Positions 2,100 to 63,881 of a stretch of DNA of 64,000 nt are shown here, piece after piece. The first letter of the stretch is position 1. Each line of letters opens with the position of its first letter. The position numbers and the translations under genes were made by a program. Source of the stretch: Cyanobacterium sp. Dongsha4. Its GTDB lineage: Bacteria; Cyanobacteriota; Cyanobacteriia; Cyanobacteriales; Cyanobacteriaceae. The stretch covers positions 2,245,326-2,309,325 of the forward strand of contig NZ_CP084098.1 in the NCBI RefSeq assembly GCF_036345015.1, written 5' to 3'. Below the pieces are notes generated by a model. It saw nothing but the letters and a program-made list of their open reading frames with translations, did no database searches and was not told where the DNA came from.

Positions 2100-3284
2100 T
2101 TGAAAGTTGCTTATGTCTGTGCTGATGTGGGTATTCCCGTATTTGGGCAAAAAGGATGTGCAATTCATGTACAAGAAATAATCCGCTCATTATTGGCGAA
2201 AAATATCGAAGTTTCCCTATTTACTCCTCGTTTAGGGGAAAAAATCCCCCATGATTTTGAAAAGGTTAACATTTATCCTCTTCCTCCTATTCCAAAGGTA
2301 GAAAAGGGTGAAAGGGAAAAAATGGCTTTAAGTATTAATTCTGATTTAGATTCCTTATTAACTTTAACTCAACCTTTTGATTTTATTTATGAGCGTTATT
2401 CGTTGTGGAGTTATGCAGGAATAGAGTTTGCCCAACAAAGACATATTCCCAGTATTTTAGAAGTTAATGCTCCTTTGATTATAGAACAAGATCAACATCG
2501 GGGTTTGGTTCATCGTCAGAAGGCAGAAAAAATTGCTCAAAGGGTATTTGAATTGGCAACTATCATTATTGCTGTGTCAAAAGAAATTAAAAGTTATGTT
2601 AGTCAATATGTGAGCAATCCAGAGAAAATTAAAGTTATTCCTAATGGAGTTAATGCTCAAAGATTTTCTGATGATGTCATTAAAAATAGCCATAAAAAGT
2701 CTAATTATCCTTTTACTGTGGGTTTTGTGGGTTCTTTGAAGCCTTGGCATGGTTTACCAATATTAATCGACAGTTTTGCTCGTTTTAATCGAGATTATCC
2801 TGAAAGTCGTCTTTTAATTGTGGGAGATGGCACGGAAAAAGATTTTTTAGTGGAGAATGTTAAGCAACGTCAATTACAATCTGTGGTGCAATTCGTGGGG
2901 GCGGTATCTCCCGACATGATTCCTTATTGGTTAGGGAAAATGGATGTAGGTATTGCGCCTTATCCTTCTTTAGATAATTTTTATTTTTCTCCTCTCAAAG
3001 TTTATGAGTATATGGCGGCAGGTTTACCTGTCATTGCGAGTAATATTGGGCAAATTAAGGAATTGATAGAGGATGGGGTTGATGGTTTACTGTGTGAGGC
3101 TGGAGATAGTTTTGCTTTAACTAATGCTTTAATAACTTTAGCTCGATCGCATCTTCTTCGTGATAAACTAGGTACATCTGCTAGAGCAAAGATTTTAAGT
3201 CATTATACATGGGATAAAGTCGCCGATAAAATTTTAGCCTGTGTCGCAGAATCTAGTTTAAGGATAAAGGAGGGTAATTCATGA
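2100..3284 (+). CDS. GT4-family glycosyltransferase (second)
   Basis: Second GT-B fold glycosyltransferase of family GT4, 394 aa. It begins with a TTG codon at 2100: the product starts MKVAYVCADVGIPVFGQKG, the first beta strand of this fold, and no closer ATG fits. A GT4 N-domain loop (KGCAIHVQEI) is followed by the donor domain with GFVGSLKPWHGLPIL and the acidic site SPLKVYEYMAAGLPVIAS. Its stop overlaps the ATG of the ABC exporter gene by 4 bases (ATGA at 3281-3284), a sign of translational coupling. That coupling ties sugar transfer to export of the same product. Specificity is unknown. Confidence 0.87.
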   Translation: MKVAYVCADVGIPVFGQKGCAIHVQEIIRSLLAKNIEVSLFTPRLGEKIPHDFEKVNIYPLPPIPKVEKGEREKMALSINSDLDSLLTLTQPFDFIYERYSLWSYAGIEFAQQRHIPSILEVNAPLIIEQDQHRGLVHRQKAEKIAQRVFELATIIIAVSKEIKSYVSQYVSNPEKIKVIPNGVNAQRFSDDVIKNSHKKSNYPFTVGFVGSLKPWHGLPILIDSFARFNRDYPESRLLIVGDGTEKDFLVENVKQRQLQSVVQFVGAVSPDMIPYWLGKMDVGIAPYPSLDNFYFSPLKVYEYMAAGLPVIASNIGQIKELIEDGVDGLLCEAGDSFALTNALITLARSHLLRDKLGTSARAKILSHYTWDKVADKILACVAESSLRIKEGNS

Positions 3285-5041
3285 CATCCGCAAAATCCTT
3301 AACAAAAACTCTGCCCATTCTCTCAGAATTATTAAGCTATTTTTCGCCCTATCTACATCAACAAAAGTGGTTAGTGATTATAACCTTTATCGCTATCGTG
3401 GCAGAAGTTGGGTTAAGAGTTTTAGAGCCTTTACCCTTAAAATTTATATTTGACTACGTTTTAGGAGATACTCCCACTCCCCTTATTCTGAATCAAATTT
3501 CACCTCTTTCTCTATTAACCTTAAGCAGTCTTTCTATTTTACTGATTACCTCTTTGAGAGCTTTTGCAGGGTACTGGAGTACTGTAGTTTCTGCGATGGT
3601 TAGTAGTAGGGTAATGACACAGGTAAGGGATGATTTGTATTGCCATCTACAACAACTTTCTCTCAATTATCACAACCAAGCCAAAAGTGGAGATTTAATC
3701 ATCCGAGTTAGCAGTGATGCTAGTCGGTTACAAGAGATTTTATTAACAGCTACTTTACCCCTGATAATCAGTAGTTTAACCTTAGTGGCAACCGTTGGGG
3801 CAATGTTGTGGATTGATGTTAAGTTGACTTTACTGTCTTTATTGACAGTACCTTTGTTCGTATTAGCTGGAAATCTTCTTAGTTCTAAGATACAAGAATC
3901 TTCTCTTAATCAACGAAAAAAAGAGGGGTTAGTTGCTTCAACGGCGGCGGAGTCGATGATGGCAATTAAACTGATTCAATCCCTATCCTTGGAAAATGCC
4001 TTTGCTCAAATATTTTTTCATCAAAATCAGGCTAGTTTAACAAAAAAAGTTGAAACTCAACGTTTATCCGCTTCTTTAGAAAGGATTGTCGATATGATAA
4101 TTGCTTTGGGTATTGCTTTGGTTTTATGGTATGGTTCTTATTTAGTATTGCAAGATAATTTGACGGCAGGAGATGTAATTGTTTTTTTTACCTATCTCAA
4201 AAATGCTTTTAAACCAATCCAAAATTTTGCTAAATATACTGGGCGTTTAGCTAAGGCTTCGGCTTCTGGAGAAAGAATTTTAAATATTTTCAAGGAAACT
4301 CCCGAAATTCGAGATTTACCCCATACTATCAATGCTTCTCCTCTACAAAGGGAAATAACTTTCAAAAATCTTAGTTTTACTTATCCCTCAGGGAAACAAA
4401 CCCTTAATAATATTAATTTAACGATAAAAGCAGAGCAATTTGTTATGATTACGGGGATTTCTGGGGGCGGAAAATCTACTTTGATGAGTTTATTATTACG
4501 TCTTTATGAGCCCACTTCAGGGGCAATTTTAGTTGATGGTAAGGATATTAGAAATTATACTCTTAAATCGTGGCGATCGCAAATTAGTGTAGTTTTACAA
4601 GAAAGTCTGTTGTTTGGAGCGACTATCAGAGAAAATATTGCTTACGGGGTGAAGAATGTCACTGATGAGGAAATTGTTGAAGCTACCAAATTAGCCAATA
4701 TTCACGACTTTATCTCCAATTTACCCCAAGGATACGATACCATGATTGGAGAAAGAGGTACAACCCTTTCAGGAGGGCAAAGACAGCGAATTGCGATCGC
4801 ACGGGCGGCTATTCGACAAACTCCCATCTTAATTTTAGACGAACCAACCACAGGACTCGATCGTCAAAATGAAGAAATTGTTATGGAATCCCTACAAAAA
4901 TTAGCTCAAAATCGCACTACTTTTTTAATTACCCATGATTTATCTTTAGCAGAAAAAGCCGATTTAATTCTTTATTTAAACAATGGTAAAGTAGAAACTT
5001 TATCTAATTGTGAACATCTAAATAAATTAGTTAAATTGTAA
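3281..5041 (+). CDS. ABC exporter, fused membrane and ATPase domains (MsbA-like)
   Basis: Half-transporter of the type IV exporter class: N-terminal six-helix transmembrane domain (about residues 20-320) followed by a nucleotide-binding domain. Visible motifs are Walker A (GISGGGKST), Q-loop (VVLQES), the signature LSGGQRQR, Walker B (ILILDEPTTGLD) and the switch His (LITHDLSLA). It should work as a homodimer that exports a lipid-linked or amphipathic substrate from the cytoplasmic leaflet. A GGAGG ribosome-binding site lies just ahead of its ATG, which overlaps the upstream glycosyltransferase stop. Context points to a glycolipid or glycoconjugate as substrate (inference). Confidence 0.9.
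   Translation: MTSAKSLTKTLPILSELLSYFSPYLHQQKWLVIITFIAIVAEVGLRVLEPLPLKFIFDYVLGDTPTPLILNQISPLSLLTLSSLSILLITSLRAFAGYWSTVVSAMVSSRVMTQVRDDLYCHLQQLSLNYHNQAKSGDLIIRVSSDASRLQEILLTATLPLIISSLTLVATVGAMLWIDVKLTLLSLLTVPLFVLAGNLLSSKIQESSLNQRKKEGLVASTAAESMMAIKLIQSLSLENAFAQIFFHQNQASLTKKVETQRLSASLERIVDMIIALGIALVLWYGSYLVLQDNLTAGDVIVFFTYLKNAFKPIQNFAKYTGRLAKASASGERILNIFKETPEIRDLPHTINASPLQREITFKNLSFTYPSGKQTLNNINLTIKAEQFVMITGISGGGKSTLMSLLLRLYEPTSGAILVDGKDIRNYTLKSWRSQISVVLQESLLFGATIRENIAYGVKNVTDEEIVEATKLANIHDFISNLPQGYDTMIGERGTTLSGGQRQRIAIARAAIRQTPILILDEPTTGLDRQNEEIVMESLQKLAQNRTTFLITHDLSLAEKADLILYLNNGKVETLSNCEHLNKLVKL
4573..4580. repeat. HIP1 octamer GCGATCGC (example of many)
   Basis: Highly iterated palindrome 1, the hallmark octamer of many cyanobacterial genomes. 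This example lies in the ABC exporter gene. Dozens more, often with a flanking A, occur in this window, mostly inside coding regions, for example in the PP2C, amidase and radA genes. Repeat-rich spacers carry few. Confidence 0.9.
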
Positions 5042-12976: not shown

Positions 12977-14761
12977 ATGTCCATGAGCGATTTTGACACC
13001 ACTATTTATAAATGTATCATTAGCACTCCTGCCGATAAAACCCCTTATATCCCTTTTAAAACCCCAGAAGAAACAAAAGGTAAATTACCTAACAAATATG
13101 CCCTAGTAAATCCATTAGAACTAAATTCCCTCACCCCTTATATAACAATTAATAATCGTCAATATTTTGCTTTAGAAGTTATCGATATAAATCCCGAACA
13201 AAAAAGCATATTAGATGAAAATTTGGAAAAAATAGAAGATTTTGAGAAGGATAATTTAAAAAAAGTAGGTATTCCCGACTTAGCTTTTGTTTATCTTACC
13301 CTAACCGAATATAATCCCACCGTACCTGAACTTTTAGATGCTTGGCAAGATTCCGAATTTGATCAGGAAGTGGTAATTGTCACCAACAATCAAATATTTA
13401 AAACCCTGACAGAATATTGGGAAAATAACACCCCTGATAAAGCAACTATATTAGGTTATTTACAAACCATGACTAAGTTATGGAGAACTCTTGGTAAACT
13501 TAATTGTCGCTCTACACTACTACATATCAATAATCTAAAAATTGATTTTAATCAAACACTCTTAATAGAGCATATATACCAAGACCCTGAGAATGATCCT
13601 CCGTTATTGAGGGAATTAGTAGAAACATGGGCTAATTTAATTGCTGATTTCGGTGGAGATTATGAGTCATTAATTACAGATTTAATGATCAAAATTGAGT
13701 CAGGAGAGGTAGAAAATGCGAAACAATTACGCTCTGAAATAGAGTTGCTAATTCAACAAACAGAAATTGAATCATTATTAGAAGAGGAAGATTTAAGTTT
13801 TCTCAATGAGAGTGATGAGTTAAACACCATTGCTGAGTCATTTGGAGATGATGATTTATCTTCTGAATCTCAAGCTACACAAATTAACAGTGATGGAGAT
13901 GACCAACCTACTTTAGTTTTGCCGATGCGTTTATTGAGCGTTAAAGAAGTGGGATTGACGGATATTGGTCGTCGTCGGGGACATAATGAAGACTATTTTG
14001 CGATGGATACAACAATCAAAAAGTCTGAAAGCTCTCGTGGTACTTATGTTTCTGCAAAAGGACTCTTTTTAGTTTGTGATGGTATGGGAGGTCATGCAGG
14101 AGGTGAAGTTGCAAGTGCTACGGCAGTCAAGTGTTTATCAGAGTATTTCCAGCAAAATTGGGACGACGAATTGCCTTCTGCTCAAACCATTCGGGAAGGA
14201 ATTTTAAGTGCGAATGAAACGATTTATTCTCTTAACAAGGATAAAGGACAAGTCGGTGCTGGTAGAATGGGAACAACTCTCACTTTAACTTTAGTGCAAG
14301 ACACAAAAGCTGCGATCGCACACGTGGGAGATAGTCGAATTTATCGAGTTACCCGTAAATGGGGTTTAGAGTTACTGACTGTAGATCATTGTGTTGCTCA
14401 AGCAGAAATCAGACAAGGAGTTGATCCAGAAATTGCCTATGCGCGCCCCGATGCTTACCAATTAACCCAAGCCCTAGGCCCCAGAGACAATAGCTTTGTT
14501 AATCCAGACATCAGATTTTTAGACATTAAAGAGGATACCTTATTTTTAATGTGTTCCGATGGTTTATATGACAATGATTTATTTGAAAGTAACTGGGAAA
14601 AAATCCTTTTACCCTTAATTAGTTCCAAGGCTAGTTTAGAAGAAGGAGTTGCCCACATAATTGACCTTGGCAACCAAGTAAATGGTCATGATAATCTAAC
14701 TTGTGTTTTAGTGCGCATTAAAGTACAACCTAATTTAGATGGGCAAAGTGGATTTTTTTAA
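12977..14761 (+). CDS. PP2C-type Ser/Thr protein phosphatase with long N-terminal extension
   Basis: Metal-dependent (PPM/PP2C) phosphatase that removes phosphate from Ser/Thr of target proteins. The catalytic domain occupies about residues 315-590. Motifs are VGLTDIGRRRGHNEDYF, GLFLVCDGMGGHAGGEVAS, GTTLTLTLV, AHVGDSRIYR, LFLMCSDGLYDN and GHDNLTCVLV. The N-terminal 300 residues are acidic and not clearly alike to a known domain; a stretch around residues 140-215 (WRTLGKL..RSTLLHINNLKIDF) faintly recalls a degenerate kinase lobe (speculative). The stop codon TAA is the outermost part of a dispersed repeat (TAATCTCAGTTCGG), so the extreme C terminus may have been set by element insertion. Confidence 0.88.
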   Translation: MSMSDFDTTIYKCIISTPADKTPYIPFKTPEETKGKLPNKYALVNPLELNSLTPYITINNRQYFALEVIDINPEQKSILDENLEKIEDFEKDNLKKVGIPDLAFVYLTLTEYNPTVPELLDAWQDSEFDQEVVIVTNNQIFKTLTEYWENNTPDKATILGYLQTMTKLWRTLGKLNCRSTLLHINNLKIDFNQTLLIEHIYQDPENDPPLLRELVETWANLIADFGGDYESLITDLMIKIESGEVENAKQLRSEIELLIQQTEIESLLEEEDLSFLNESDELNTIAESFGDDDLSSESQATQINSDGDDQPTLVLPMRLLSVKEVGLTDIGRRRGHNEDYFAMDTTIKKSESSRGTYVSAKGLFLVCDGMGGHAGGEVASATAVKCLSEYFQQNWDDELPSAQTIREGILSANETIYSLNKDKGQVGAGRMGTTLTLTLVQDTKAAIAHVGDSRIYRVTRKWGLELLTVDHCVAQAEIRQGVDPEIAYARPDAYQLTQALGPRDNSFVNPDIRFLDIKEDTLFLMCSDGLYDNDLFESNWEKILLPLISSKASLEEGVAHIIDLGNQVNGHDNLTCVLVRIKVQPNLDGQSGFF

Positions 14762-14786
14762 TCTCAGTTCGGTTTAAGCACATCGG

Positions 14787-28297: not shown

Positions 28298-28403
28298 AAA
28301 ATAATTTAAAAATTAATAATAAAACAGTGACAGAAGGCTAAAGCCTTTGATTTTTTATGTAATAGCTCAAAGCTATAAAACTTATCAGTTAATTGTATCT
28401 TAT

Positions 28404-29594
28404 ATGAGTAAAATCGCTTATTTACAATGTCATACAGGAATAGCAGGGGATATGTTTTTAGGGGCATTAGTTTCCGCTGGTGTGCCACTAGAATATTTAG
28501 AGAAAAGTTTAGAGAGCTTAAATATCAGTCAAGAGTATAAATTACAAGAAGAAACTGTAACTAGAAATGGGCTTTGTGCGACAAAAATTCATGTCCATTT
28601 AACATCTCATTCTCATCATCACCATCACCATAGACATTTAGCAGATATTGAACATATTATTAATCAAAGTAATTTAGCCCCTCAAATTAAGGCTAATAGT
28701 TTAGCTATTGTTCGTCAACTTGCGATCGCAGAAGCAAAAGTTCATAATACAAACATAGATAAAGTCCATTTTCACGAAGTGGGGGCAGTAGATGCCATTG
28801 TTGATATTGTTGGTACTTGTATCGGATTAGATTATTTAGGGATAGAAAAATTATACTGCTCACCTTTACCCACAGGAGGAGGCACAGTCAAAGCCGCTCA
28901 CGGAATATTACCAGTACCAGTACCCGCCGTGCTAGAGTTGTTACAAAGCCGTAAAATCCCAATATATAGCAACGGTATTGAAAAAGAATTAGTTACTCCC
29001 ACAGGGGCGGCAATTGCGGCGACGTTAACGGAAAGTTTTGGACAACCTCCCAAAATGAATTTAGAGAAAATAGGCAATGGTGCAGGAAGTCATGATTTAT
29101 CTCTACCTAATGTTTTACGTCTTTGGATAGGGGAAATAGAGTTATCTGATTTAGAGGAAATAGCAGTCTTAGAAACTCAAATTGATGATTGTAACCCCCA
29201 AATTTTGGCTTATGTCTTAGAAGATTTATTAAATATTGGTGCAAAAGATGTCTTTACTCAACCTGTGATGATGAAAAAAAGTCGTCTTGGGGTTTTGTTG
29301 ACAGTAATTTGTGAGCTTGACAAAATCAGTATATGTGAAAATCTTATTTTCCGAGAGACTACGACTTTAGGCATTCGCAGACAAATTCAACAAAGATCGA
29401 TACTAGAGCGAGAAATTAGAACTATTAAGAGTAAATATGGCGATATAAGATTAAAAATCGCTAAAAAGAACGAGAAAATTGTGAATGTCTATCCTGAATA
29501 TGAAGATTGTGCAACTATTGCCCGTCAATTAGATATTCCTATTAATAGAATTCAATGGGAAGTGGTAAGGGAATTTTACGAGAAGCAAACCTGA
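28404..29594 (+). CDS. larC: LarC-family nickel pincer cofactor protein
   Basis: LarC inserts nickel into the pincer pyridinium cofactor used by lactate racemase and related enzymes (established for Lactobacillus). The start MSKIAYLQCHTGIAGDMFLGAL (ATG at 28404) matches the family; an upstream in-frame ATG at 28347 would add 19 unrelated residues. A His-run, HSHHHHHHRH, near residue 68 is a likely nickel-binding loop. The central VHFHEVGAVDAIVDIVGT and LVTPTGAAIAATL, and the C-terminal ETQIDDCNPQILAYV, are typical. The gene is one continuous frame of 396 aa, unlike Lactobacillus larC, which needs a programmed frameshift. larA, larB and larE are not in the window. The stop TGA lies in a dispersed-repeat terminus. 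Confidence 0.88.
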   Translation: MSKIAYLQCHTGIAGDMFLGALVSAGVPLEYLEKSLESLNISQEYKLQEETVTRNGLCATKIHVHLTSHSHHHHHHRHLADIEHIINQSNLAPQIKANSLAIVRQLAIAEAKVHNTNIDKVHFHEVGAVDAIVDIVGTCIGLDYLGIEKLYCSPLPTGGGTVKAAHGILPVPVPAVLELLQSRKIPIYSNGIEKELVTPTGAAIAATLTESFGQPPKMNLEKIGNGAGSHDLSLPNVLRLWIGEIELSDLEEIAVLETQIDDCNPQILAYVLEDLLNIGAKDVFTQPVMMKKSRLGVLLTVICELDKISICENLIFRETTTLGIRRQIQQRSILEREIRTIKSKYGDIRLKIAKKNEKIVNVYPEYEDCATIARQLDIPINRIQWEVVREFYEKQT

Positions 29595-29615
29595 GTTTTA
29601 TTAAGGGCGAGGGGC

Positions 29616-29641
29616 AAACCTCCTCGAGAGCAGGTTTTTTT
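29616..29641 (+). terminator. candidate intrinsic terminator of larC
   Basis: AAACCT (29616-29621) can pair with AGGTTT (29632-29637) across a CCTCGAGAGC loop, and the hairpin runs straight into a T-tract ending at 29641. It sits about 22 bp after the larC stop. The stem is short. Confidence 0.5.
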
Positions 29642-29644
29642 CAA

Positions 29645-29704
29645 AAGTTCCAGAATCTATAAAATTGCAAGTGTTTGCGGAGTTTGACAAAAGAGGGATA
29701 AAGG
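29645..29704 (+). repeat. partial copy of the 7.3-kb inverted-repeat element
   Basis: AGTTCCAGAATCTATAAA followed by GTGTTTGCGGAGTTTGACAA and AAGAGGGATA. It matches the reverse complement of 7345-7398 with a few differences. Only one end of the element is present here. Confidence 0.7.
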
Positions 29705-29837
29705 GGGTTTCTTTTAAGGGGAGACATAGAGAGGTTTGCTTTTTGACTGTTGCCTCCTGCCCCTTACTCTTTGCCCTTTTACCAATTTATCCAGAACTCA
29801 GATTTAAGAATTAAAATTCCAAAATTTCAGTTAATGC

Positions 29838-39017: not shown

Positions 39018-39150
39018 TAACTTTATTTCAATTTAAGAATATCAGTTAAGTGTCAGGTTGTTGGGGGATTGGGGGATTAGGAGTTAGGAGTTATTAATTA
39101 TAAACTATTTACCTTTGCTCTTTGCTCTTTTGCCCTTTTTACTCTGCCTT
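39018..39150 (+). repeat. dispersed element copy (diverged left end)
   Basis: Diverged left end TAACTTTATTTCAATTTAAG then AATATCAGTTAAGTGTCAGG, a TAGGAGTTAGGAGTTATTAA segment and the module AACTATTTACCTTTGCTC. A right-end-like CCAACTAAGGTTA occurs at about 39194-39206, overlapping the 3' end of pgeF. Confidence 0.55.
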
Positions 39151-39202
39151 TTGCATGAGTGCCTACCTTAACCTTAATTGACAATTTTATATCCAACTAA
39201 GG

Positions 39203-39985
39203 TTACTGAGAAACAATACCACTCCATTGAATATTTTTCTCTTTAGTGCGACGATAGGAAAAGAAATCTTCTGGGGTTTGATAAGTACAATAGGGCGCGA
39301 TCGCAATTTTATTTAAGTTTATACCTTGTTGTTGAATTTGTAAATTAATCACCTGAGTAACATTTAATCTAACTTTATTTTCTTCCTCATCAGGTAAAAT
39401 CGGCTGATTTTCTATTTGTAAGGCTTTTTCAATGATTAATTCTGAGGGAGTATCTGAAGGGAAAATAGTTTTTAAAACCTCAACAGCAACTTCCTTATTG
39501 ACTTGATATACCTTACCATGAATAGCAGGACCTAAAGCAAACAGTAAATCTCCTAATTTCGACCCTTGAGATTGTAAAAGTGCGATCGCCTTTGGTACAA
39601 TTGCAGTAGAAGTGCCACGCCATCCCGAATGAATCGCCATCACCCTACCACTACCTTGATCAGCAATAAGAACAGGTGTACAATCAGCACTAGCACACCA
39701 AACTGAATCCAAAGACTTACTAGAGACAATACCATCCCCTTCCAATAAATCAGCACTAGATAAATAGTGGCTATCTAATGTTGCAGTAGAAAAGAGAATA
39801 TCGCTATGAATTTGCTTAAGACGATAAACAGAAGCATTTGGGTTTAAATAACTAACAAGAATATTTGGGGAATCCCCCTGAAAATGACAAGTAAAAAACC
39901 CGTGTTGCCAATTCCTCAGCAAATCACAGGTTAAAAATCTACCTTTTTCCGTCTCTCGCCATTGCCACATAGAAGAATTAGTCAT
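39203..39985 (-). CDS. pgeF: peptidoglycan editing factor PgeF (YfiH, laccase-domain)
   Basis: Cytoplasmic protein of the YfiH/DUF152 family; the E. coli member prevents misincorporation of L-Ser in place of L-Ala in peptidoglycan precursors, and homologues are related to purine nucleoside phosphorylases. The metal site shows as the His in RLKQIHSD, Cys in WCASADCTPVLI and His in VMAIHSGWRGTS. ALGPAIHGKVYQV and APYCTYQTPEDFFSYRR follow. I chose ATG 39985; a TTG two codons earlier is the alternative. Length about 260 aa is standard. It converges on the large receptor gene. Confidence 0.88.
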   Translation of the reverse strand: MTNSSMWQWRETEKGRFLTCDLLRNWQHGFFTCHFQGDSPNILVSYLNPNASVYRLKQIHSDILFSTATLDSHYLSSADLLEGDGIVSSKSLDSVWCASADCTPVLIADQGSGRVMAIHSGWRGTSTAIVPKAIALLQSQGSKLGDLLFALGPAIHGKVYQVNKEVAVEVLKTIFPSDTPSELIIEKALQIENQPILPDEEENKVRLNVTQVINLQIQQQGINLNKIAIAPYCTYQTPEDFFSYRRTKEKNIQWSGIVSQ

Positions 39986-40117
39986 ATACAATGAAGAATT
40001 AAAAATGAAGAATGAAGAAGTAAAGGCATTATTCCTTTATCATCTCAATGATTAATATAAATTTAACTAAACATTTTTCTACATTCTACATCGTACATTT
40101 CAGATTCTTTCAAGCAA

Positions 40118-40872: not shown

Positions 40873-41313
40873 GGGTATTGGGGCAGGGCTGTTTCAAAGT
40901 AGAAAGACAAAAACGCTAAAACTATTACCAGTAAAAGAATATAGGGTTTTAGAGCTTTGAGGATTAAGAAGTAGTTAAAAATGTTGAGATTATCAATTTA
41001 TAACCATAAACCATTAACAACTATTGCAAGAGTGCCTATTCCCTACCTGAGTTCGATGAAAAAGTATCGAAAAATAAAGCGCCCTCGAGTTATCATCGAG
41101 CCAATTTTGGAATAAAAAATTATTAAATTTAGGAAAAACTCATTTAAAATCAATTTATTCAGCTTTTTTGTCAATAATTATTACTTTTAACTCCGTTCAC
41201 GACCGAAGGGAGTGCATGAGAGCAGCGAACTCTCCGAACTCCGAACTCCGAACTCAGGTATTCCCTGCCTTAACCAGAAAAATTTAGAATGAAACAGCCC
41301 TGGGGTATTGGGG
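40873..41313. mobile_element. MITE-like element, copy 1, with 11-bp target duplication
   Basis: The element body is 40884-41302 (419 bp) with perfect 13-bp inverted ends CAGGGCTGTTTCA and TGAAACAGCCCTG. It is flanked by identical 11-bp direct repeats GGGTATTGGGG (40873-40883 and 41303-41313). It contains no credible coding frame. Near its right end a CTCCGAA heptad array holds a 36-bp unit (41195-41230). A second copy, about 95% alike by eye, is at 63274-63666. Confidence 0.85.
41195..41230 (+). repeat. 36-bp interspersed repeat, copy 2, nested in MITE copy 1
   Basis: Begins GTTCACGACCGAAGGGAGTG and ends AGCAGCGAAC. It is the same length as the copy at 25341-25376 with several differences. 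It is absent from the equivalent position of MITE copy 2, where an uninterrupted ACTCCGA heptad array is found. Confidence 0.7.
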
Positions 41314-46044: not shown

Positions 46045-46163
46045 TAAAAGTTAAATATTTAAAAATAAGCAAGTTGAATTAACCTGTTCAAAATCAATAT
46101 TTTTGCTTTTTGTCTCTAAATTTGTTGATTTGAAACCTGAATACTTAATTTTTAAATTCTAAA

Positions 46164-46300
46164 TAACCTCAGTTCGGTTTAAGAATATCCGATAAGGTTA
46201 GGTGTCAGGTTTCAGGTTGCAGGTGTTAGGATGATGACCAGATGAGAAGAGAGGATGAGAGGAGAAAATAATGCTTTCAGCTTATCCAAAACTCAGGTTA
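46164..46300. repeat. 137-bp MITE-like element with ACCTSAGTT ends, best-bounded copy
   Basis: The left end TAACCTCAGTTCGGTTTAAG (46164) and right end AAAACTCAGGTTA (46300) are inverted, each bordered by TA. The interior has TATCCGATAAGGTTAGGTG, TTTCAGG heptads and purine-rich GATGAGAAGAGAGG. It is non-coding. The same left end, often through AAGAATATC, is found near 14761, 39018, 49003, 54623 and 57360. Confidence 0.7.
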
Positions 46301-46342
46301 AATAAGTAGATTTCTAGCTGTATATTATTCTAATTATCATAG

Positions 46343-46363
46343 AAAAAGGTGGGCATTGCCCAC
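46343..46363 (-). terminator. hairpin terminator downstream of the PAP2 gene
   Basis: GTGGGCA and TGCCCAC form a near-perfect palindrome at 46349-46363. On the minus strand it is followed by a T-tract (46347-46343), about 50 bp past the PAP2 stop. It may also stop argS read-through as a hairpin. Confidence 0.5.
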
Positions 46364-46411
46364 TCTACTAACGCCTTGTAATTTAGCATAATTTAAAATG
46401 CTAGACTTAGA

Positions 46412-47062: not shown

Positions 47063-47354
47063 ATTTATATTTTATCTTGACCTTCAAAAAATAACACATA
47101 AAAATGTTAATTAAGTTTAGTATCTGTATCGATTTTGTTTTATTAATAAAAAATATGTATTTTGTTTCAAGGAGGCGATGTCTGAAGTGGTAGGCTTCTC
47201 CTAATCGCAATACTCCTTATTGGTTGTTATATCAAGGTCACTCAATTAGTTATAAATAACTTCTCTTGTGTTTTTGGACATCAATAATAACAAGTTAAGT
47301 CTTCAATTATAGTCGTTTTAATGCCTAAAATCTATTATCTTTGTCCTTTATAAC

Positions 47355-49001: not shown

Positions 49002-49145
49002 TTACCTCATTTTGGTTTAAGAATATCGGGTAAGGTTGGGAGTTAGGGGTATTGTGTTAGGAGTTATTAATTATCAACTATTTACCTTTGCCCCTTGCCC
49101 TTTTCTCATCACTCATCGATGAAAATTTATCCCGAACTCAGGTTA
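49002..49145. repeat. MITE-like element with ACCTSAGTT ends, copy overlapping a stop codon
   Basis: Left end TTACCTCATTTTGGTTTAAG, interior ATATCGGGTAAGG, the heptad/TATCAACTATTTACCTTTGC modules, and right end ATCCCGAACTCAGGTTA at 49145. The right end supplies the TGA stop (minus strand) of the RNase H-fold nuclease gene. A second copy sharing GATGAAAATTTATCC next to the right end is at about 56268-56478. Confidence 0.7.
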
Positions 49146-49539
49146 GCTTATTTATATAACGTTGCACTAACAGTATTGCCACTAGGTCATCAATGGGGCG
49201 GGGAGGAACTTTCAGGCTTTGAGGAATCAATCTTCCTAAACCTTTTGGAGGATACATTTGCCAGTATAGCTCTCTTGCTTCTAATGTGCTGTTTTTTTCA
49301 TCTACAAACTCAATAACAGATGATAAGTTTAGTTTATCTATTATTTTCTGTTTCCACTCTTTAGAAGTGGTCAAGTTCCCTATAATTAATTTATTTGGTT
49401 GATAATTAGACCATAAATTCTCAATAGATGCGATCGCATCTTCACTTTTTACCACCTCATGCCATAGGATTTGCTTATCTATTGTTACTATAGCCAAACC
49501 ACACTTATCTCTACCCGGATCAAAACCTAAAAATATCAT
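49138..49539 (-). CDS. RNase H-fold resolvase-like protein (RuvC/YqgF superfamily)
   Basis: 133-aa cytoplasmic protein with the RNase H-like start IFLGFDPGRDKCGLAIV (catalytic Asp after the first strand), NKLIIGNLTTSKEWKQKI (second strand), EFVDEKNSTLEAREL (acid in the third strand) and PPRPIDDLVAILLVQRYI (final acids). It matches the short Holliday-junction-resolvase-like proteins of cyanobacteria. It may process nucleic-acid junctions or rRNA, which is not proven. I set the start at ATG 49539. The last codons (KLT, stop) run into an element terminus. Confidence 0.75.
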   Translation of the reverse strand: MIFLGFDPGRDKCGLAIVTIDKQILWHEVVKSEDAIASIENLWSNYQPNKLIIGNLTTSKEWKQKIIDKLNLSSVIEFVDEKNSTLEARELYWQMYPPKGLGRLIPQSLKVPPRPIDDLVAILLVQRYINKLT

Positions 49540-49663
49540 AAATGACAAACCCCGCAAAAATATAATAGACTTTTTACAAAACTAGAGAAGAAAATAGTAT
49601 TACCCTCAAAAAGTTAAAATATAAATAAAAAAGTAAACATCTGGAAAAAGGTAAAAAATCTGA

Positions 49664-50374: not shown

Positions 50375-50494
50375 ATTTATAGGTTGTAATATTATGGTGA
50401 GGGTAGGGGAAAGAAGGACAAAGGGGGAGAGGAGTAAACTAATTATTAATTCATCATTCATCATTTTTAATTCTTAATTTATATAAGGGGATTG

Positions 50495-54564: not shown

Positions 54565-54975
54565 GATTACTCAATTTTGATTAATGGTCAACATTAAGTA
54601 TTGTAAAGTATATTGCTCTCATTAATCTCAGTTACTCAGTAAGAATATCGGTTAAGGGCACATTGCATGAGTCTTGTCGGTTTCGGGTTTGATGGTTTGA
54701 TTTTTTCAACATTTGGCGGCGCTTAATCATAAGTATTAAATGTACTGAAATTATGCCAAAAATCGAGACATCAAAATATTATCACTATTCCCCACCTGAA
54801 TGAGAAATTATATCTACAATCAACAACGCCTAACATTTAATTAAATCCGTTAGAAAGACTTAATAAGTAAATATGCTTATAACTTTTAATATTAAATTTG
54901 ATAAAGAAAATGATCTCTAAAAAAAAAGATTTGATAAGGTGAAATAATTTGTAGAAAAGATAAATTTCAGGGATA
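54565..54975. other. 411-bp spacer with a partial dispersed element
   Basis: A left-end copy, TAATCTCAGTTACTCAG then AAGAATATCGGTTAAGGGC, lies at 54623-54660; no clear matching right end was found. A GTTTCGGGTTTGATGGTTTG stretch follows. The remainder is AT-rich and holds the presumed divergent promoters of grxC and the following small gene. No further gene was recognised. Confidence 0.5.
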
Positions 54976-56169: not shown

Positions 56170-56267
56170 CTTGTTACCTCTGCGTTGTTTATAAATTGAA
56201 TTTTGATTTTAATGGTTAATTTTGATCTGAAAAATTATGGGGAAACTTATTGAAGGAAAGTTCGTCT

Positions 56268-56478
56268 AATAAAATATCGAAGAAGAGTAGGTTTCAGGCA
56301 TCAGGTTTCAGGTTGTAGGTGTTAAGGTATTGGGGTGTTAGGGAGAAACAAGTTGGGGGTATTGTGTTAAGAGTTAGAAGTTATTAATTATCAACTATTT
56401 ACCTTTGCCCCTTACCCCTTGCCCTTTGACCTTTTCGCCATCACTCTATAGATGAAAATTTATCCTGAACTCAGGTTA
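56268..56478. repeat. MITE-like element with ACCTSAGTT ends, copy with diverged left end
   Basis: Right end ATCCTGAACTCAGGTTA at 56478 is clear. The interior shares GGGGGTATTGTGTTA, TTAATTATCAACTATTTACC, GCCCCTT and GATGAAAATTTATCC with the 49002-49145 copy. Left end (near AAAATATCGAAGAAG) is degenerate. Confidence 0.6.
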
Positions 56479-56519: not shown

Positions 56520-57362
56520 TTGATTATTGCCGTGTTTAAATATTATCGAAAGTTAGTTTATCTATTCACATCTGTCTTTGTTGCTTCTAGTTTAATTATC
56601 ACTGATGTGCAACCTAGTAATGCTATCCCTTGGCAGGAGTTAATTTTTAGGGGTATTCAGCTTATTCAGATCAATAATATCAGTGATCAACAAGAGAGAG
56701 AAATTGGTGGTCAAATTCGCCAACAACTATTATCTCAAGGCAAAGTTAAGTTGTACAGAGATGAAAATTTATCTGCTTACGTTAATCAAATTGGACGCAG
56801 GTTAGTGGCCGTCAGTGGCAGGCCAAATATACCTTATCGTTTTGAAATAGTTGATAATCCTCAAGTTAATGCTTTTGCTACTATGGGGGGCTATATTTAT
56901 TTGCATACAGGTTTAATTACCACCGCAAATAATGAAGCAGAGTTGGCCAGTGTAATTGCCCATGAAATTGGTCATGTTGTTGCTCGTCACTCTCAAAAAC
57001 AAATGCAACAACAAGCACTAACTCAGGGTTTATTAAGTGTAGCAGGTTTAGATCGCACTCAGGTAGTACAGTTAGGGGTCGCATTAGCTGTTGATTTACC
57101 TTATTCTCGTCAAGACGAATATGAGGCGGATACTTTGGGGTTGGAAATGTTGAAAGCGGCAGGTTATGCACCTCAAGCGATGGTTGATTTTATGCGTAAG
57201 TTAGCAAAAACGGGGGGAAGAACTCCTACTTTACTTAGTACCCACCCCGCTTCTGGAGATCGTGCGATCGCACTTGAACAAAAAATTCCAGCTTCGAGAG
57301 GTTATCAAGGAGATGGTTTAGACGAACAAGCCTACCGCTATCAAATTCGCTCTTTACTCTAA
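56520..57362 (+). CDS. M48-family metalloprotease, secreted or membrane-anchored
   Basis: Zinc protease of the M48 (Ste24/HtpX/BepA-like) family, 280 aa. A signal-peptide-like N terminus (YLFTSVFVASSLIITDVQ) precedes the catalytic domain. Zinc ligands are in HEIGH of SVIAHEIGHVVARHS and the downstream Glu in YSRQDEYEADTLGLEML, followed by LLSTHPASGDRAIAL, typical of periplasmic quality-control members. The start is TTG at 56520 with a GTG alternative at 56532; neither has a strong ribosome-binding site. Its TAA stop is immediately followed by CTTCAGTTAATATTAAGAAT, a dispersed-element end. Confidence 0.87.
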   Translation: MIIAVFKYYRKLVYLFTSVFVASSLIITDVQPSNAIPWQELIFRGIQLIQINNISDQQEREIGGQIRQQLLSQGKVKLYRDENLSAYVNQIGRRLVAVSGRPNIPYRFEIVDNPQVNAFATMGGYIYLHTGLITTANNEAELASVIAHEIGHVVARHSQKQMQQQALTQGLLSVAGLDRTQVVQLGVALAVDLPYSRQDEYEADTLGLEMLKAAGYAPQAMVDFMRKLAKTGGRTPTLLSTHPASGDRAIALEQKIPASRGYQGDGLDEQAYRYQIRSLL

Positions 57363-57427
57363 CTTCAGTTAATATTAAGAATATTTGATTTGGGTAGGTT
57401 TTAGGTATCAGGTTTCAGGTGTCAGGT

Positions 57428-63131: not shown

Positions 63132-63881
63132 TTGAATTAACCTGAGTTCAATATAAAATTTTTGGTGGTGTAAGTAAAAGTGTCAGGTATCAGGGGATTA
63201 GGAGATTAGAGTGTTGGGTTGGGGTGTTAGGGAGAAGTTAATTAAACATTTTTGCCCTGCCCTCTTGAGAGAGCAGGGCTGTTTCAAAGTAGAAATACAA
63301 AAACCCTAAAACTATTGCCAGTAAAAGAATATAGCGTTTTAGAGCTTTGAGGATTAAGAAGTAGTTAAAAATGTTTAGATTATCAATTTATAACCATAAA
63401 CCATTAAAAACTATTGCAAGAGTGCCTATTCCCCAACTGAGTTCGATGAAAAAAGTATCGAAAAATAAAGCGCCCTCGAGTTATCATCGAGCCAATTTTG
63501 GAATAAAAAATTATTAAATTTAGGAAAAACTCATTTAAAATCAATTTATTCAGCTTTTTTGTCAATAATTATTACTTTTAACTCCGAACTCCGAACTCCG
63601 AACTCCGAACTCCGAACTCAGGTATTCCCTGCCTTAACCAGAAAATTTTAGAATGAAAAAACCCTGCTTGAGAGAGGGAATAAACCGGGGTTTCTTTTAA
63701 GGGGAGACACAGAGGGGTTTTTCCTCTTGCCCACCTTAACGGACAATCTTATATCGAACTTAGGTGATGAAAATTGAACTTTTGCTTAACTTGTGCGTCT
63801 GATGAATATAGTTAATTAATGAAAGTTATTTAACCTCAGTTTAAGATAATATTTTGAGGTTGAAAGGGAAATACTATAAGA
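63132..63881. other. 750-bp repeat-rich spacer
   Basis: Starts with an ACCTGAGTTC end, followed by GTCAGGTATCAGGGG and GGGGTGTTAGGGAGAAG modules, then the 393-bp MITE copy 2 and its flanks. A GAGAGGGAATAAACCGGGGT and TTTCTTTTAAGGGGAGACAC piece, shared with 29700-29735, comes next. An imperfect palindrome AACCTCA...TGAGGTT (63832-63861) lies 20-50 bp before the next gene, where it could be a regulatory hairpin. No coding gene was seen. Confidence 0.65.
63264..63676. mobile_element. MITE-like element, copy 2, with 10-bp target duplication
   Basis: The body (63274-63666, 393 bp) begins CAGGGCTGTTTCAAAGTAG and ends TGAAAAAACCCTG, a right end with two changes. It is flanked by identical 10-bp repeats CTTGAGAGAG (63264-63273 and 63667-63676). 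The interior matches copy 1 almost throughout but lacks the 36-bp unit, carrying instead a plain ACTCCGA heptad array at about 63580-63620. Confidence 0.85.

Follow-up and report, generated by a model that had tools for sequence, protein, structure and literature searches.

A high-copy MITE family of Cyanobacterium sp. Dongsha4, probably moved by an IS982-type transposase and often located at stop codons

Cyanobacterial STRR sequences are short, tandemly repeated 7-base arrays in intergenic DNA, which are not transposons by themselves. MITECca01 of the Cardinium endosymbiont (~240 bp, no transposase) is described as derived from its parent ISCca4, a member of the IS982 family, and has ends very similar to those of the resident IS982 element (PMC9769881). 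MITEAba12 of Acinetobacter baumannii (111–114 bp, 9-bp duplications) is moved by ISAba12 and has its ends and duplications in common with this resident IS; 40% of 90 copies carried the duplication and one copy at a gene 3′ end creates a premature stop (PMC6382973). The BrickBuilt MITE of Porphyromonas gingivalis has a tandem repeat array with a unit of 23 bases as its interior (PMC4596501), and RUP of Streptococcus pneumoniae (IS630-Spn1) is an intergenic MITE of 107 bp that resembles a resident IS at its ends and inserts at TA (PMC2229807). Earlier cyanobacterial MITEs are named in PMC10969869. Precedents exist for an IS982-type MITE, for tandem repeats in a MITE, and for a single MITE-made stop at a gene end.

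The element family described here, termed A, is represented by a complete copy of 133 bp in a stretch of 64,000 nucleotides of the Cyanobacterium sp. Dongsha4 genome (G000; 4,320,404 bases, 5 contigs), hereafter called the window (C1:2245326-2309325). Like MITECca01, the family has ends resembling those of a resident IS982 element; unlike it, the family has a heptad-rich interior without likeness to the resident IS, and its copies are often found at stops. With MITEAba12 it shares the agreement of ends and duplications with a resident IS, whereas a general placement at stop codons is not described in the available parts of PMC6382973. The interior is a tandem array as in BrickBuilt, with a unit of 7 instead of 23 bases and in a different host, and the duplications of 6–8 bp set the family apart from the TA insertion of RUP. 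Arrays of 7 bases reminiscent of STRR sequences occurred both inside and outside the MITEs. The A family itself was not found described in the open-access literature on IS982, MITEs, and cyanobacteria that was searched, including the accessible part of PMC9208149. The copy at 46166-46298 is very probably a MITE of a high-copy family that is moved by an IS982-type transposase and generates 6–8 bp duplications of the form TA(N2-4)TA.

A sequence-only reading of the window had delimited this copy as 46164-46300, with TAACCTCAGTTCGG from 46164 and AACTCAGGTTA up to 46300 as inverted ends bordered by TA. Both ends and the copy as such are present, but the element proper spans 46166-46298, reads ACCTCAGTTCGG..AAAACTCAGGT, and is flanked flush on either side by TAAATA, so that the bordering TA represents the ends of a 6-bp target duplication. 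No transposase gene is present in the element, as no ORF of at least 80 aa was found between 46044 and 46412. A known structured RNA was considered and rejected for 46100-46400, where no Rfam match was obtained at E ≤ 1, and plasmids searched with a 601-base query comprising the copy and its surroundings gave no match. The earlier interpretation as a MITE is upheld by the inverted ends, the precise duplications, the absence of such an ORF, and the high copy number, and additionally by precise empty sites in a sister family (B, see below).

The end motif ACCTSAGTTCG (≤ 1 mismatch) occurred 13 times in the window vs 0.67 times expected (100 shuffles, largest 3), and the longer motif TAACCTSAGTT of the sequence-only reading 12 times vs 2.77 expected (largest 9 in shuffles). 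Throughout the genome, TAACCTSAGTTC (≤ 1 mismatch) was found 359 times vs 62 times for a reversed-pattern control. Copies of the A family have the left end ACCTCAGTTCGGTTTAAGAATATC and a right end that, read inward, is ACCTGAGTTTTGGATAAGCTGAAAG or ACCTGAGTTCGGGATAAATTTTCATC. Family B has ACCTGAGTTCGATGAAAAAAG, ACCTGAGTTCGATATAA, or ACCTGAGTTCGGAGTTCGG as ends (ACCTGAGTTCGAT-type) and duplications of 6–7 bp. The first ~10 bases are common to A and B and their targets are unlike, which suggests that the two families have different movers. One hybrid (L237) combines one A end and one B end with the A-type duplication TAATCTA.

Of the further sites listed in the earlier reading, those at 49004-49143, 39020-39203, and 29589-29803 are indeed two-ended, but decayed (Table 1). 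At 14761, 54625, 56476, and 57362, ends were found as claimed, but each is a single end or has a decayed partner and none forms a complete copy. The site at 63140 belongs to a ACCTGAGTTCRATATAA (B-like) element. A complete B-type copy at 41045-41259 with the 7-bp duplication ATTCCCT was missing from the list. It is enclosed by a third inverted repeat at 40884-41302 with CAGGGCTGTTTCA-like ends, and this composite seems to have multiplied, because seven B copies carry the same ATTCCCT duplication. The third inverted-repeat family, with ends CAGGGCTGTTTCA..TGAAACAGCCCTG, was seen both at 40884-41302 and in L114, where a DDE_Tnp_1 relic with similar ends (GCAGGGCTGTTTCATTTTCAAA) was also observed.

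Table 1 Features of the window related to MITE families A and B (positions are those of the window)
Feature	Position	Strand	Remarks
Target duplication, left copy TAAATA (6 bp)	46160..46165		Read directly
Complete A-type MITE, 133 bp	46166..46298	+	Left end ACCTCAGTTCGGTTTAAGAATATC, CAGGTTT-type heptads, right end AGCTTATCCAAAACTCAGGT
Target duplication, right copy TAAATA (6 bp)	46299..46304		Matches left copy
Decayed A-type MITE, no intact duplication	49004..49143	+	Same place occupied in congener G001, heptad interior different
Decayed MITE, A-like left end and B-like right end	39020..39203	+	
Decayed two-ended copy	29589..29803	+	Own ACCTGA gives TGA 29592-29594, closing ORF 28347-29594
A-type left end	14761..14785	+	TAA 14759-14761 closes ORF 12977-14761
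Decayed A-type left end	54625..54650	+	
A-type right end	56457..56476	-	Left partner apparently decayed, near 56266
Decayed A-type left end	57362..57385	+	TAA 57360-57362 closes ORF 56520-57362
Complete B-type MITE 41045-41259 (215 bp)	41038..41266	+	ATTCCCT at 41038-41044 and 41260-41266
B-like ends ACCTGAGTTCAATATAA and TTATATCGAACTTAGGT, without matching duplication	63140..63765	+	B-type MITE 63435-63623 inside
Empty site TAAAATCT, occupied in G001 by a B-type insertion of 239 bp	47326..47333	+	

Duplications were evaluated in 493 convergent end pairs of the fetched loci, comprising A, B, IS, and chance pairs. An exact duplication of at least 6 bp was present in 63 pairs, flush with ACCT..AGGT (37 of 6 bp, 21 of 7 bp, 4 of 8 bp, and 1 of 10 bp), and 64 pairs had a duplication of at least 5 bp compared to a mean of 4.6 and a maximum of 11 after shuffling of partners. 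Stricter end models yielded 49 distinct complete A copies, 23 of which had an exact 6–8 bp duplication and 32 of which had one with at most one mismatch; if the boundary was moved by −1 or +1 base, four duplications each were found, and partner shuffles gave a mean of 3.6 and a maximum of 9. This pattern is the signature of a staggered insertion of 6–8 bp and not of TA insertion, and the lack of an exact duplication in 26/49 copies, which counts against the explanation, would be expected if many copies were old. The stricter models also returned 72 B “copies,” 18 of them with duplications, a count that is too high, since heptad ends can be matched at more than one offset; a set of 27 B copies was used instead for target preference. 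When these 27 B and 25 A copies, all preselected for a duplication of at least 6 bp (two of the 25, L051 and L237, being of mixed type), were compared, TA stood at both ends of the duplication in 23 of the 25 A copies (one of the 25 duplications is 10 bp long) and in none of the 27 B copies, and the GC content of the duplications was 6% in A vs 34% in B.

In the sequence-only reading, the family had tentatively been ascribed to a TA-targeting transposase of the IS630/Tc1-mariner type, i.e., to insertion at a single TA, and in 36 of the 49 complete A copies ACCT..AGGT is indeed bordered by TA at either end. The 2-bp TA duplication of such MITEs was not found; instead, the identical duplications in the 23 A copies reach beyond TA to 6–8 bp, the boundary is ACCT..AGGT, family B lacks the TA..TA form in spite of near-identical outer bases, and the transposase that accompanies matching ends in this genome, obtained in a search for DDE_Tnp_1, is an IS982. 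The ascription to IS630/Tc1-mariner was thus abandoned, and we regard it as very improbable.

This resident element, with 11 distinct, intact copies of 964 bp in the genome (98.8–100% identical; L110 is the same copy as L103), has the ends ACCTCAGTTTTGGATAAG and AACCAAAACTCAGGT (ACC-type), and 9/11 copies have a 6–8 bp duplication, with TA..TA in six of these nine. Its transposase matched the IS982 models NF033520 (transpos_IS982, 271 bits at a cut-off of 130) and PF13612 (240 bits), and length, ACC-type ends, and 6–8 bp duplications likewise agree with the IS982 family, from whose insertion sequences the A MITEs differ by having no transposase gene. The right end of the 46166-46298 copy is identical to the right end of the IS982 element in 20/22 bases. 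In one A subgroup, the IS ends agreed with one A end in 20/22 and 17/18 bases, and the TTTTGGATAAG end of the resident IS is borne almost exactly. The best of 90 IS–MITE alignments (25 of the 90 listed) covers 22 bases and lies at an end. A simple origin of the MITEs by deletion within the 964-bp IS was rejected, because the similarity stops after ~22 bases and the interiors are unlike. As mover of the A family, the resident element is the foremost candidate, and we infer that an IS982 protein, probably the resident one, moves the MITEs in trans.

The A family may also have been derived from another, now lost IS982 element, which would also have been its main mover. Such an origin is compatible with the main explanation, and we consider it a real possibility, albeit not the favored one. 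It is in line with the restriction of the match with the resident IS to the ends, with the left end CGGTTTAAGAATATC, which is identical to neither resident IS end, and the right end CGGGATAAATTTTCATC, which likewise differs from the resident element. In the congener G001, no IS982 match was obtained from five candidates at E ≤ 0.001 although A copies are many, so that the source there is lost or different. The related genome G014 (same family) has three IS982 copies above the cut-off, one of which was read in its entirety and has ACCTGAGTTCGGGATAAG ends and the duplication TACTTA. Arguing against a lost source are the A subgroup with the almost exact TTTTGGATAAG end and the target preference of the resident IS, which is similar to that of the A family. 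For a wider comparison, 40 of 80 loci related to IS982 were examined, mostly cyanobacterial and including several copies from one genome. Related ends were present in 33 of the 40: 32 loci show the type AC.T.AGT..GG[AT]TAAG or a close variant, and L178 has AGTTCGACGA; a 6–8 bp duplication flush with the boundary was found in 14 of these 33, with candidates having duplications being favored by the selection. The A ends fit the end pattern of these IS982 relatives.

The search for DDE_Tnp_1 in this genome and in G001 yielded 27 loci, and ACCTGAGTTCGAT-type ends bracketed a transposase frame in none of them, i.e., a mover for B was not found there. Two candidates for autonomous elements were dismissed: L066, whose 251-aa frame looks on visual inspection like a radical-SAM activating enzyme, and L018/L025, where a permease-like gene (by eye) lies between two copies. 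A partial IS982-like frame with another end type (ACCCAAGTTGCTAGTTAT / ATAACTAGCAACTCGGGT) was observed in L313 (C1:2544000-2546400), where it adjoins an A-type right end and heptads. An A element of 982 bp with the duplication TAATTA (L005:578-1559) holds an inserted gene read by eye as an IS1-type transposase.

The position of A ends relative to genes was determined in contiguous sequence (the window and L042-L059, 424 kb of two genomes), with the end of an open frame of at least 100 codons as a stand-in for a gene and a stop counted at −8 to +4 of an A end. Stops were found at 16/42 A ends (G000 8/20, G001 8/22, one orthologous pair being counted twice) compared to 75/1398 duplication-like intergenic sites (Fisher p = 8e-10), 94 of 4000 random intergenic points, and 1/17 B ends. 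Those lying wholly outside the element (−8 to −4) amounted to 7/42 vs 26/1398 (p = 2.6e-5), and all seven were at −7 to −5, in or beside the duplication. The other 9 of the 16 stops use element bases, either at −2 (first A of the element, preceded by TA from the duplication) or at +3 (ACC-TGA), and could be created by any insertion inside or near the end of a frame. Among the loci outside the contiguous set, stops were present at 12/77 A ends in loci found by element similarity and 20/81 in loci picked by pattern; a count in which all these sets were mixed gave 43/212. As L197-L276 were partly picked by a pattern with TA before ACC, which favors TAA stops, the stop-codon claim rests on the contiguous sequence. 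The more frequent orientation of A-left than A-right ends towards stops (30/106 vs 16/109, p = 0.019) was obtained from these mixed, TAA-biased loci. Within the window, mechanically predicted ORFs end at a MITE boundary at 14761, 57362, 29594, 39203 (−), and 49138 (−). The TAA closing the ORF 39203-39991 (−) sits at the right boundary of the MITE 39020-39203, and the right end of 49004-49143 provides the TGA of frame 49138-49557 (−), which has 139 aa and a TTG start and is only a putative gene. A MITE family broadly placed at stop codons was not found in a limited search of the open-access literature.

With an IS982-type insertion as the preferred explanation, a DDE transposase would recognize the A terminal repeats (~ACCTSAGTTYKGKWTAAG) and duplicate 6–8 bp of its preferred target TA(N2-4)TA. 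Stop codons lie within such targets, and an insertion can complete a stop, either through ...TA and the first A of the element (TAA) or through ACCTGA (TGA). Insertions at gene 3′ ends are therefore common and probably tolerated, and we infer that the observed bias combines target choice and tolerance. A more far-reaching proposal is that A MITEs act as a mobile gene-end module, which is steered to stops by the IS982-type choice of TA(N2-4)TA, can rebuild them, installs a rapidly changing, heptad-bearing 3′ region behind many genes, and thereby remodels transcript ends; this is put forward tentatively and appears unlikely at present.

A comparison of orthologous spacers, as suggested in the sequence-only reading, was successful for the sister family B, for which two precise empty sites were identified, whereas none was found for A at the places tried. 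At the first site, G001 carries TAAAATC-element-AAAATC (239 bp) where the window has TAAAATC from 47326 onwards; at the second, the element L232:15661-15868 with the duplication AAGTAAT is present in G000 and absent from G001. Scanning the duplicated copies against the available loci of the other genome returned an orthologous empty site for a B copy only. The spacer of the 46166 copy had no alignment in G001, the A copies L267 and L008 lie within larger indels, the flanking sequences of L030 match at two places (L008 and L030 taken from match coordinates), and those of the A copy at L263:500 are located at different sites of G001. L263:7666-7927 is an insertion shared by both genomes. The copy at 49004-49143 is shared as well, with its ends and flanks aligning and its heptad middle differing (58 vs 165 bases unaligned), and in G001 a MITE (L046:15709-15947) lies beside the same gene as 39020-39203. 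At the latter, synteny breaks: one flank is shared, and on its other side the G001 copy is bordered by sequence matching C1:207410-208252 of G000, with recombination between MITE copies being a possible cause. When 224 kb from this genome were compared with 200 kb from G001, synteny around the window extended over only ~14 kb, although identity within aligned blocks was mostly 85–97%; dispersed repeats may be one cause of this. G001 also has 858 bp at L046 ~3261-4118 in place of 67 bases at 50376-50442 of the window, with a match to a group II intron (RF00029, 56.6 bits).

The heptad structure noticed earlier in A interiors was confirmed (lag 7, z = 20.7 against base-composition shuffles); it was weak in B interiors (z = 3.4). 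The module TATCAACTATTTACC, by contrast, failed as a mark of the family: of its 32 near-matches in the 424 kb of both genomes, five were flanked by A-like ends on both sides at a distance of up to 300 bp, eight on one side, and 19 on neither. As heptad blocks thus also occur alone, they are separate repeats that MITEs carry. A elements with duplications sit within heptad blocks in L003, L004, and L005. In L003, a B element with a 6-bp duplication is inserted into an A element, of which uninterrupted relatives exist. The same captured B fragment is found in six A copies at different places (L022, L023, L027, L029, L030, and L255), indicating that the composite formed and was then multiplied. 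The interior is best described as fast-changing cargo, consisting of heptad arrays and pieces of other MITEs.

The 19 core sites without MITE ends would also agree with a reading in which the units are intergenic heptad (STRR-like) arrays that were spread by recombination, their ends being kept by chance or selection. Neither the sharp boundary of the duplications nor the two precise orthologous empty sites of B fit such arrays, and the same holds for the nested insertion in L003 with its duplication and the uninterrupted relatives of the host repeat; we give this reading hardly any credence and retain the A units as IS982-type MITEs.

The analysis corrects the transposase family and precisely delimits a class of repeats that has hundreds of ends in a single genome, for which it also points to a likely mover. 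The multiplied nested composites mean that these MITEs capture other repeats, heptad arrays included. The stop-codon bias suggests a route by which MITEs may reach a high copy number with little damage, and the shaping of transcript 3′ ends by MITEs becomes testable.
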